From Candidatus Zhuqueibacterota bacterium (GTDB taxonomy: Bacteria; Zhuqueibacterota; Zhuqueibacteria; Residuimicrobiales; Krinioviventaceae), in assembly GCA_016934825.1 (NCBI GenBank), contig JAFGSB010000160.1, forward strand, positions 62,001 to 126,000: a stretch of DNA of 64,000 nt, in the 5' to 3' direction. How positions within the stretch are numbered: position 1 is the first letter of the stretch; each line of letters begins with the position of its first letter. The position numbers were made by a program, and so were the translations under genes. Below are positions 3,359 to 20,177 of this stretch, in pieces. The notes beneath the pieces were generated by a model. It was not told the DNA's origin. It saw only the letters and a list, made by a program, of their open reading frames with translations, and did not search any database.

Positions 3359-3553
3359 ATTTAGAACATGTGTAATGTGAATAGCACAGGAATTGATCGG
3401 AACCACGCCCCGGGGTGTCGTATGGTTGGAGCAAATATATGTGAAAATATCAAAAGTTTTTGAAAGCTACACCCCGGGGCGTCTTATGCCTGGAGCGTGT
3501 GCAGTATAAAAAGGCCGGGAATTTATCGGAACCACGCCCCGGGGTGTCCTCTG
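3342..3553. repeat. Array of four GC-rich palindromic cores with 64-65 bp period
   Basis: Near-identical 12-base palindromes occur at 3342-3353 (CGCCCCGGGGCG), 3406-3417 (CGCCCCGGGGTG), 3470-3481 (CACCCCGGGGCG) and 3535-3546 (CGCCCCGGGGTG). They are spaced 64, 64 and 65 bases apart. The flanks are partly shared. A GGAATTKATCGGAACCA block precedes cores 2 and 4, and a TCnTATGnnTGGAGC block follows cores 2 and 3. This looks like a decayed tandem repeat of hairpin-forming units. It fills the gap between the isomerase gene and the adenylate-forming enzyme; no gene is seen in it. Confidence 0.75.
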
Positions 3554-3646
3554 TCCATCTCCACAGAAATATTCCAGGGGATTTCCGTGTTTAAGAGTGT
3601 TATTATCAATAGTGACACTGTTTACTGGATTGGAAAAATTAGTATC

Positions 3647-4984
3647 ATGAATTTAGAACAAATTATACGATATAACCTGTTATGGACAGCAGACTGGTTA
3701 CGCGGCAGTCCCTTCAGAAAACATTTGCGGGATATAGAATATGCTTTCAACCATCCTGAGAAATACGAAGCCGTGCGTCAGCAGCGCCTGGCGGAGCTGT
3801 TGAAACATGCCTGTTCCACCACGAAATATTACAGCCGGTTTTCGGATCACAAAAGTCTGTCCGACTTTCCGGTTTTAAACAAAACCACATTAAAGCAGTA
3901 TTACGACGACTTTATATCCAATAAATATGATCAAACCTCCCTGCCGACAACACGAACAAGCGGTTCGTACGGTCTGCCGTTTACTTATTATATGAACAAA
4001 GAAAAATATCACAGGCGGTTCGCGGAAATTCTGTACTTTAACGGCTGGGCCGGGTATAGTCCGGGGATGCGATTTGCGCAGGTTCGTCCCAAAAGGTTCA
4101 ACCGGCTGTATAAATTGTTAAATAATTCGATAACCATCAATCCATATGTCATTAATGAAGAATGGCTTTACCGGCAAAGAAATATCTTATTAACCCAAAA
4201 AGTTGAATTTTTAATTGCCTATCCCGGCGCGCTGCTGCAGATTGCCGCCTATTGTGAAAGCAAGGGTGATACACCGGAAGATTTTCGGCTTAAAGGGATC
4301 GTCTGCAGCGCGGAAGGATTGACGCCAGGGGCCAGGGATAAATTTAATTCGGTTTTCGGGTGTCCGGTGTTCGACCGTTACGCCGCCCAGGAACTGGGTG
4401 TGATCGCCCATGAAAGCGTTACCCATGACAACTATTATGTGAATTTTGCTTCCCATTATTTCGAATTGCTGGCTTTTGATAAAGACGAACCGGTCAAACC
4501 GGGTGAACCGGGCCGCGTTGTGGTGACGGACCTGTTCTCCCATGCCATGCCCCTGATCCGGTATGAAACGGGCGACAGCGCCGAACTGGACACGGATACA
4601 AACGGGGATCCGTATATTCCTAAAATTAAAAGTATACACGGCAGGATCCTTGAACTGATCTATAAAACAAACGGGGATTATGTTAACTGGGCCGCTTTAT
4701 TCGACGTGATCGATCTGGACCCCGAGCTGACCGGCTCGATTTTTCAGTACCAGTTTATTCAAAACAGCCGGAATACCTATACGATAAAATTGTGCGTTAA
4801 ACCGTCATTTGTCCAGGAAGAACACCTGCTGAATAAGTACCAGGAATTATTGGGGGATACCGCCAAAATAACGGTTGAATATGTGGATTCCATCCCGCCG
4901 CTTGCTTCGGGCAAACGACCGATTATTATCAATAATATGCATAACACAAAAATTTTTACAAAAGCACTTAATGCAAACGAATAA
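3647..4984 (+). CDS. Phenylacetate-CoA ligase-like (PaaK/CapK family) adenylate-forming enzyme
   Basis: This 445-residue protein resembles the PaaK/CapK branch of the ANL adenylate-forming superfamily. The P-loop-like motif is TSGSYGLPF (104-112), and an A5-type motif DRYAAQELG lies near 243-251, preceded by CSAEGLTPGARDKF. Family members activate carboxylic acids as acyl-AMP for transfer to CoA or another acceptor; CapK-like members sit in capsule and surface-polysaccharide loci. I choose the ATG at 3647 because the upstream in-frame extension runs into the palindrome array, although the ribosome binding site is weak. It has no close operon partner, being flanked by repeat-rich spacers on both sides, so the substrate is open. 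Confidence 0.8.
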   Translation: MNLEQIIRYNLLWTADWLRGSPFRKHLRDIEYAFNHPEKYEAVRQQRLAELLKHACSTTKYYSRFSDHKSLSDFPVLNKTTLKQYYDDFISNKYDQTSLPTTRTSGSYGLPFTYYMNKEKYHRRFAEILYFNGWAGYSPGMRFAQVRPKRFNRLYKLLNNSITINPYVINEEWLYRQRNILLTQKVEFLIAYPGALLQIAAYCESKGDTPEDFRLKGIVCSAEGLTPGARDKFNSVFGCPVFDRYAAQELGVIAHESVTHDNYYVNFASHYFELLAFDKDEPVKPGEPGRVVVTDLFSHAMPLIRYETGDSAELDTDTNGDPYIPKIKSIHGRILELIYKTNGDYVNWAALFDVIDLDPELTGSIFQYQFIQNSRNTYTIKLCVKPSFVQEEHLLNKYQELLGDTAKITVEYVDSIPPLASGKRPIIINNMHNTKIFTKALNANE

Positions 4985-5048
4985 AAATATCGATTGTGAT
5001 ACTAATTTTCAACCGCAAGGAAGCAAGGTTCGCAAAACGAATAAGCAG

Positions 5049-5066
5049 GGTGAGCTTCAGCGCACC
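5049..5066. repeat. REP-like 18-base imperfect palindrome, copy 1
   Basis: GGTGAGCTTCAGCGCACC folds into an eight-base-pair stem with one mismatch around TC. The identical 18-mer recurs at 5244-5261, and a perfect palindromic variant lies at 5290-5307. Confidence 0.7.
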
Positions 5067-5093
5067 AATAACCTGTCATATCTTGTTAAAAAT

Positions 5094-5134
5094 GTCCCTT
5101 CGATACGTTCCACTTGGTGGAACTACTCAGGGAC
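5094..5134. repeat. REP-like nested hairpin
   Basis: An outer GTCCCT (5094-5099)/AGGGAC (5129-5134) pair encloses an inner GTTCCAC (5107-5113)/GTGGAAC (5117-5123) stem. The framing CCTTCGATACG and TACTCAGGGACC resembles extragenic palindromes that I know from many bacterial genomes. It is non-coding and lies in the gap 4985-5517, which contains no convincing gene. Confidence 0.55.
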
Positions 5135-5241
5135 CGTTGCGTCGTTAGGACAGACAGGATATTACAATTCCACAAGGGAGCCTGTTCTTACGGATGATTT
5201 TTTGGTTATATAGATTTGTCAACGCGTAAGCGGGAAAAGGT

Positions 5242-5309
5242 AGGGTGAGCTTCAGCGCACCTTTAGATAATTCGATTTGCACATGTAAAGGTGCGCCTCG
5301 GCGCACCCT
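5242..5309. repeat. Inverted repeat with 24-base arms built from two REP-like palindromes
   Basis: The arms at 5242-5265 and 5286-5309 are inverted copies with about four mismatches, separated by a 20-base loop. Each arm begins AGGGTG, ends CACCTTTA and contains its own small palindrome. The structure could be a REP doublet or a very small MITE-like element. Confidence 0.7.
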
Positions 5310-5449
5310 GCATGCTACATATCGTTTACCCTAATAGTATAAAAAACCGTGCAACCTGGCCGTCGCTTTGTATTGGATACTCTTTTCATAGCTGCGATTT
5401 TAAATCCCTTCTAAAAATAACTTTACACCTAAAATAAAAAAATCTTGAT

Positions 5450-5517: not shown

Positions 5518-6291
5518 ATGCAAAAACCGACAGCCTTGATAACGGGCGCGGGCAGGGGCATCGGCAGGGGTATCGCCGAAAAGCTGGCGGAGCTGAATTA
5601 TAATATCGTTATTGACGATATATTCAGTGAAAATGATATTGCGGAAACACTGGAATCCATAAAAGCCAAAGGCGCGGATGTACTGTACGTGCAGGCGGAT
5701 ATTTCAAAATCTGATGACCGAAAAAAATTAGTAAAGGCCGTAAAGAACAAATTTAACCACCTTGATGTGCTGGTCAATAACGCCGGTGTGGCCCCAAAAG
5801 TGCGTATGGACATATTGGAAGCAACCGAAGAAAGTTTTGACCGGGTACTGAACATTAATCTCAAAGGGCCCTATTTTCTCACCCAGCTTGTCGCCAACTG
5901 GATGATCGAGCAGAAAAAAGAGGACCCGGATCGGGATTTCAAGATTATTAATACGGCCTCCATGTCATCCTATGTGTCCTCACCTGCGCGGGGAGAGTAC
6001 TGCGTGTCCAAAGCGGGCGTCAGCATGATGACCAAACTGTATGCCGACCGGCTCTCCGAATTCGGAATCCTGGTGTACGAAATTCGTCCGGGTATTATCT
6101 ATTCGGATATGACGTCCGTCGTCAAGGAAAAATATGACAAGCTTATCGAAGACGGCCTGCTGCCGATAAAACGCTGGGGCTATCCTGAAGATATAGCCAG
6201 GGCGGTTGCCGGGATCGTACTGGGTTATTTCCCCTATTCAACCGGCGAAGTCATTAATGTGGACGGCGGATACCACCTGCAAAGATTATAA
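5518..6291 (+). CDS. Short-chain dehydrogenase/reductase (FabG-like SDR)
   Basis: This 257-residue protein is a classical SDR of typical length. It has the cofactor motif TGAGRGIG (9-16), the structural NNAG (87-90) and a catalytic set Ser148, Tyr161, Lys165 (YCVSK). An Asp at the end of the second strand (VIDD, around 33) suggests NAD(H) rather than NADP(H). The conserved C-terminal INVDGGY is present. The start at 5518 has GAGGT upstream. The flavoprotein gene follows after 30 bases, so they are probably co-transcribed. FabG-like SDRs are often annotated as 3-ketoacyl-ACP reductases, but the pairing here points to oxidation of a sugar, polyol or hydroxy-acid; the substrate is not known. Confidence 0.92.
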   Translation: MQKPTALITGAGRGIGRGIAEKLAELNYNIVIDDIFSENDIAETLESIKAKGADVLYVQADISKSDDRKKLVKAVKNKFNHLDVLVNNAGVAPKVRMDILEATEESFDRVLNINLKGPYFLTQLVANWMIEQKKEDPDRDFKIINTASMSSYVSSPARGEYCVSKAGVSMMTKLYADRLSEFGILVYEIRPGIIYSDMTSVVKEKYDKLIEDGLLPIKRWGYPEDIARAVAGIVLGYFPYSTGEVINVDGGYHLQRL

Positions 6292-19532: not shown

Positions 19533-20177
19533 TTAGCGATACAATACCGAAACAATTTGAATAATTTTGGATAAAACGGCTTCAAATGAAAAATAGGAAA
19601 CATCGTCAACGACCCATGTTTCAGAGGCCTGCGGGTCAATATAATTATATTTTGTGGTTAGTTTTTTAATTTCCGTCCAGGCGTCTTTATATTTTTTCGT
19701 AAAATATAATGCCTGGGCTTTAATTAAGATTAAATCGCGCCAGTCAATTTTAGGCTGATAGCTAAAACTATAAGCCGGATTGTCTTTCAGGCAATAATTG
19801 ACCAGCGCGGGTATTTCATCATATTTTGCCTGATTAAATTTTGCCACAATAATCCCTGTCCGGCAATCTGATACCCAATTGCCGTCGGTCAAGCCTTTCT
19901 CAAGACATAATATAACCAGTTGCAGATGGTTACTGTCCCGCAACAGTAATGCCCAGCCTTTACCGACATTCGCGGCAACGTTTTCAGGCTCCTGCGCCAG
20001 TACTTTATCAAACTTCTGTTGGGCCGAATCATATTGGCTGGCCGTAAAGTCCGCCCAACCTGAATCCAACAATTCTTCTATTGTAGGATCCCCGGTAACC
20101 TTTTTTTCCGGTTCCGTAGTAAATTTACCACAGTGAAGAAATATCAAGCTAAAGAATATAATCAGTATTTTTTTCAT
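19533..20177 (-). CDS. TPR-containing lipoprotein
   Basis: This 214-residue protein starts with a lipoprotein signal (MKKILIIFFSLIFLHCG, lipobox cysteine at 16) and contains tetratricopeptide-like helices, for example GWADFTASQYDSAQQKFDKV, VLAQEPENVAANVGKGWALL and ALYFTKKYKDAWTEIKKL. TPR lipoproteins usually act as assembly or docking factors in the periplasm or at the outer membrane. The ATG overlaps the stop of the upstream giant gene by four bases, so translation is probably coupled. That ties its role to the giant secreted protein and to the propeller lipoprotein downstream. Confidence 0.8.
   Translation of the reverse strand: MKKILIIFFSLIFLHCGKFTTEPEKKVTGDPTIEELLDSGWADFTASQYDSAQQKFDKVLAQEPENVAANVGKGWALLLRDSNHLQLVILCLEKGLTDGNWVSDCRTGIIVAKFNQAKYDEIPALVNYCLKDNPAYSFSYQPKIDWRDLILIKAQALYFTKKYKDAWTEIKKLTTKYNYIDPQASETWVVDDVSYFSFEAVLSKIIQIVSVLYR

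Follow-up and report, generated by a model that had tools for sequence, protein, structure and literature searches.

The paired palindromes at one intergenic site of the window, the whole 64,000-nucleotide stretch of DNA analysed here (C34:62001-126000), form a REP doublet of the ordinary bacterial kind, a very small mobile element without coding content. There is little doubt in our view that this doublet is a REPIN, a non-autonomous miniature element, and that a REP-associated tyrosine transposase (RAYT) gene on another contig of the same genome, C23, is its most likely mobiliser. The anatomy of the element, its repetition, a spacer common to several copies and a RAYT with its catalytic residues amid the same units are all observed in the DNA.

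Results

Anatomy of the window doublet

Including its tags, the whole element spans 5240-5311 and is an inverted pair of palindromes with the tags pointing outward. The plus strand carries GTAG followed by GGTGAGC-TTCA-GCGCACC and the minus strand GCAG followed by GGTGCGC-CGAG-GCGCACC, with a 28-nt spacer between them. An A.G mismatch lies in the middle of the stem in the left and the single units, and the right unit is paired throughout its 8-bp stem, leaving a loop of 2 nt. The inverted arms, taken as 5242-5268 and 5283-5309, are 27 nt long and 78% complementary, with 14 nt between them. An earlier sequence-only reading had described inverted copies at 5242-5265 and 5286-5309, which are present as placed and agree at 19 of 24 positions by eye. 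It had also assigned each arm its own GGTG(A/C)GC...GCGCACC palindrome, and hairpins are indeed found in both units, with the mismatch in the left one. The third copy that it reported, with an identical 18-mer, matches the left arm over 20 nt (5047-5066 against 5242-5261); such a copy does lie nearby, but not at the 180 bases proposed, as the gap to the doublet is 175 nt. This lone unit is probably the remnant of another REPIN.

Allowing up to three mismatches, the unit pattern was matched four times in the window (three sites, one on both strands) against 0.03 expected from whole-window shuffles, and the exact gapped pattern was likewise matched four times against 0.00 expected. Folding as single-stranded DNA, computed for the long hairpin of the window doublet only, gave -20.1 kcal/mol for the 89-nt doublet (z -4.1), and 0 of 200 shuffles were as good. 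The copy is extragenic, as the flanking genes end at 4984 and start at 5518. It thus has the features that define a REPIN, namely inverted REPs, outward tags, a spacer and the ability to form one long hairpin, in an extragenic position. Two of the three window tags are GCAG instead of GTAG, and these show that the window copy has decayed. A 112-aa open reading frame running across the repeats (4875-5213) is probably spurious. The 2-nt loop of the L-type unit, read after the tag, is TC at C23 (L031, 2027-2044) and GA, its reverse complement, in the window (5290-5307); either two substitutions or a flipped hairpin would account for the difference.

Table. Features of the window (plain coordinates) and of contig C23 (prefixed coordinates)
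Feature	Coordinates	Strand	Description
Upstream ORF	3497..4984	+	Weak AMP-binding similarity (17.4 bits; Pfam cut-off not reached); stops 60 nt short of the first REP tag
Solitary REP unit (R type)	5045..5066	+	GCAG tag and R-type hairpin as in unit 1
Family B palindrome	5094..5134	-	Outer stem GTCCCT/AGGGAC; internal loop GAGTAG/CGTATCGA; inner stem TTCCAC/GTGGAA
Family C, third repeated piece	about 5160..5235	.	Similar to stretches of C98 and C60
REP unit 1 (R type)	5240..5261	+	GTAG tag intact (5240-5243); GGTGAGC/GCGCACC stem containing an A.G mismatch; TTCA loop
REPIN spacer	5262..5289	.	28 nt; alignable to the C48 and C23 doublet spacers
REP unit 2 (L type)	5290..5311	-	Decayed GCAG tag 5308-5311; perfect stem GGTGCGCC/GGCGCACC
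Short-chain dehydrogenase gene, downstream	5518..6291	+	
Upstream doublets of C23 RAYT	C23:19614-19693, 19856-19925		
RAYT gene	C23:19971-20525		184-aa product; NF047646, PF01797 and 4er8 similarity
Downstream doublet of C23 RAYT	C23:20522-20601		
Downstream single of C23 RAYT	C23:20646-20667		

Copies across the genome

A scan with three unit forms, covering selected stretches of the genome (5.39 Mb, 179 contigs), identified 14 units of this family, here family A, on four contigs: three in the window, seven on C23, two on C48 and two on C133. This count disposes of the outcome that had been raised against the sequence-only reading, a unit occurring only here. Ten of the 14 units pair into five inverted doublets, and the remaining four are single. 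Their tags are exact GTAG in 11 cases, GCAG in two and GCAT in one. Family A shows the mark of the GTAG super-family, whose palindromes carry at one end an unpaired tag, GTAG (or GYAG/GTRG). The same scan found no family A unit in 20 other stretches of the genome (53,145 nt). Searching the genome with the exact pattern GGTGMGCNNNNGCGCACC returned 13 strand matches at 8 sites and none for the reversed control; with two mismatches allowed, there were 52 strand matches against 9, and those off the four contigs look by eye like scattered chance matches.

The doublets of the window, C48 and C23 (three) can be aligned through the spacer, and the window and C48 copies show 86% identity across 66 nt (E 2e-15). 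The arms fall into two types, L (GTAGGGTGCGCC...) and R (mostly with a GGTG(T/A)GC stem), each in a constant position, which makes the doublet a heterodimer. Although dispersed over four contigs, family A comprises only 14 units, seven of them beside the RAYT. According to the portions of PMC2817692 available to us, REPs usually exceed 100 copies, and one family in its table has just 1/10/16 copies. Low copy number is the only unusual feature of family A, and some copies may be missing owing to the 179-contig assembly; C48, for instance, starts 132 nt before its doublet.

The RAYT gene on C23

Eight Y1_Tnp matches were found in the genome, one of which (C23:20007-20378, 48 bits, PF01797) is embedded in a cluster of REP units. 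The encoded protein scores 197.2 bits against the NCBIfam model NF047646 REP_Tyr_transpos (REP-associated tyrosine transposase; cut-off 80) and 32.5 bits against the IS200 model, under the cut-off of 55. It also matches the solved TnpA-REP structure PDB 4er8 (E 1.2e-36), with homology in two stretches that cover most of the protein. In this alignment the HUH motif (H-I-H) and a tyrosine aligned with Y115 are kept, within the segments PDHIHCIW and DYIHYNPVKH (residue numbers were counted by hand). Judged by these similarities, the gene encodes a RAYT, that is, a Y1/IS200-like transposase of the REP-associated type.

Seven REP units surround the gene, with inverted copies on both sides, which is the RAYT gene flanked by the unit that the sequence-only reading had anticipated. 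Its inference of a REP-doublet (REPIN) organisation is likewise borne out by the outward tags, the spacer and a family dispersed in the genome together with a RAYT. The stop codon TAG of the gene coincides with the last three letters of the downstream GTAG tag, and one unit thus overlaps the stop. At L035 (2014-2019), the RAYT stop TAG sits inside the tag (GTAG) of the REP downstream.

RAYT relatives and their hairpins

Relatives of the C23 RAYT were collected as the best 80 of 582 confirmed stretches, which are 43-57% identical and come from several phyla, and seven loci from a family search brought the sample to 87. A GTAG-tagged hairpin was found near the gene at 71 of the 87 loci and two or more at 59, with 80 of the loci being the best of 582. 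The GTAG tag gave 224 hairpin matches near these loci, compared with 7-47 for nine other tags; this control is uneven, and its higher values (GATG 47, CATG 25) count against the reading. Three of the loci (L065, L082 and L115) have the very same stem, GGTGCGC/GCGCACC, together with GTAG. Stem type was mapped on a quick tree of 68 RAYTs (L128, one of 69 labelled rows, was dropped as too short), with 67 rows and 14 states scored and with loci that lacked a clear hairpin or were cut short left out of the labels. It changed 25 times, whereas 300 shuffles averaged 40.2 changes and never gave fewer than 35. Stems thus tend to follow their RAYTs.

Among 82 genomes of the phylum, 15 carry a RAYT relative (E up to 1e-30) and six carry GTAGGGTGNGC..GCNCACC. 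At the variable stem position, C, T or A was seen in the genome of the window only, save one GGTGTGC in G050, and the others have GGTGGGC. Further RAYTs of the own genome have GTAG hairpins alongside (GTAGGTCGGGC..., GTAGGGCGGATC...), namely L036 (C86), L038 and L039 (C100, C102), the copies on C100 and C102 ending at contig ends. Two other Y1_Tnp genes, L034 (C117) and L037 (C106), are flanked by palindromes of a non-GTAG kind, ACAAGGGG/CCCCTTGT and AGTGCATCCC/GGGATGCACT; the C117 kind also occurs in the only congener (G001), at L202.

A second palindrome family in the same mosaic

The stretch that runs from the lone unit to the doublet contains first a family B palindrome and then a family C piece. 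On C48 the order is a family A doublet followed by family B, without family C between them. Family C consists of a GTTGACAAATATATCAAA-like stretch, followed by an imperfect hairpin in other copies; it lies near family B on C60 as well, and further copies are at L013 (about 1501-1557) and L014 (about 1501-1585).

The hairpins of family B change in sequence and are bracketed by the tags GAGTAG and CGTAYCGA; since copies were identified through these tags, it is by construction that the tags are constant. Matches outnumbered those of the reversed control in the own genome (21 vs 0), in G001 (67 vs 3) and in G071 (33 vs 2), whereas 0-2 matches per genome represent background, as the reversed control has as many or more in most genomes. 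Some copies are head-head pairs. In the own genome, 86% of arm positions of the inner stem pair, against 49% when partners are shuffled (13 distinct 5' arms, 20 copies), a value reached in 0 of 2000 shuffles. Pairing of the outer stem stands out in the own genome, where 2 of 2000 shuffles do as well, and does not in G001 (753 of 2000; only five distinct arms).

A Y1 transposase beside family B was considered and dropped, as no copy was near any Y1_Tnp gene examined: in a search that reached about 1.5 kb from the gene, or as far as the contig allowed, none was found at all 22 Y1_Tnp loci of G001, G071, G025 and G044 or at seven of the eight own loci, nor near the eighth (C23) with the stricter CGTATCGA tag. 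In two G001 stretches, the genes adjoining family B are unrelated and ordinary-looking by eye. No family B match was found in plasmids, and literature searches by the sequence letters of family B and of family A gave unrelated papers only among the matches listed. A further literature search returned the known REP/RAYT papers. We tentatively propose that family B is a separate class of dispersed element without an adjacent RAYT, whose partner, an enzyme or an RNA-binding factor, might read the fixed loop and the shape instead of the stem. If so, stems would have been re-written from copy to copy while still pairing, clearly so for the inner stem and less so for the outer one. In REP families, as described in the parts of the literature available to us, stems are largely conserved per family, whereas those of family B vary. 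Family B is odder than the REP doublet itself.

Discussion

From the biology of RAYTs, as given in the available portions of PMC8266576 and PMC3116915, we infer how the doublet moves. The C23 RAYT most likely recognises a folded single strand consisting of tag and hairpin, would cut near it by its HUH/tyrosine centre, and the doublet would then be pasted or copied elsewhere. The window copy is taken to be an old insertion between two genes of the same direction, in which one doublet tag has presumably decayed to GCAG and the lone third unit would be left from another doublet. A DNA search of 40 genomes yielded no pair of filled and empty sites; the sole match in any other genome was to the downstream dehydrogenase gene. 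The congener G001 is without a family A unit, and the region before its orthologous dehydrogenase carries family B and other repeats and no family A, which is why it offers no clean empty site.

The window copy could instead be part of a larger mosaic of A doublet and B palindrome, common to C48, that was duplicated or recombined as a whole, which we regard as possible but doubtful. The order of doublet, B palindrome and spacer is common to both sites, with linker similarity in register, and because the similarity runs past the doublet into family B, a larger segment may have been copied to give the two. However, a piece of about 60 nt that parts A from B in the window is absent at C48, the three C23 doublets have the REPIN in common and not family B, and two independent insertions next to older B copies are an equally simple account. 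It is less probable still that the hairpins persist because they serve the 3497-4984 gene, which they follow, as a transcription terminator or mRNA stabiliser, and have nothing to do with mobility. They start 60 nt past the upstream stop codon and can fold, but a terminator scan picked out nothing terminator-like at the REP units, only one weak site on the minus strand at 5351-5366, and the same units surround a RAYT gene. The terminator reading of the units was therefore dropped, and so was a known RNA family, as no part of the window matched Rfam. A secondary RNA role for the hairpins alongside mobility is possible. Finally, as a short inverted-repeat element with no gene inside, the doublet might be taken for a MITE that derives from an ordinary (DDE) insertion sequence and has no relation to RAYTs; the outward GTAG tags, the self-palindromic arms and the RAYT flanked by the same units are features of REPs and make this highly improbable.

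As a REPIN, the element can be compared with known systems through the available portions of the papers cited. Like the REPINs of Pseudomonas fluorescens SBW25 (PMC3116915), it is an inverted REP doublet with a spacer that can form one long hairpin, with clusters by the cognate RAYT and with singlets that are taken as remnants there. It differs from them in stem sequence, in copy number (14 units here, hundreds there) and in its distinct R and L arms. The REPs of the GTAG super-family (PMC3733652) show the same degeneration of GTAG to GYAG and a 7-bp stem, as well as head-head dimers 20-100 bp apart, REP-flanked RAYTs and several REPtrons per genome, and a heterodimer form has been described for them. 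The text of that paper, whose consensus sequences are printed in figures, gave no match to GGTGCGC. The REP of Haemophilus influenzae reported by Nunvar et al. 2010 (PMC2817692), GTAGGGTGGGCTTcAGCCCACC, has the same tag and nearly the same stem as family A (GGTGGGC in that gammaproteobacterial host, GGTGCGC here). The C23 RAYT resembles the TnpA-REP of 4er8 in its HUH motif and tyrosine. The E. coli REPs, in contrast, are longer and have a stem bulge, according to work on the biochemistry of group 2/3 TnpA-REP (PMC8266576).

These findings add a clear low-copy REPIN/RAYT pair in a lineage that has several such pairs. Family A is notable for two arms that differ in a fixed way and for a RAYT that ends inside a REP tag. 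If the tags of family B are fixed and its stems variable, that family would offer a direct test of what a palindrome-moving enzyme recognises.
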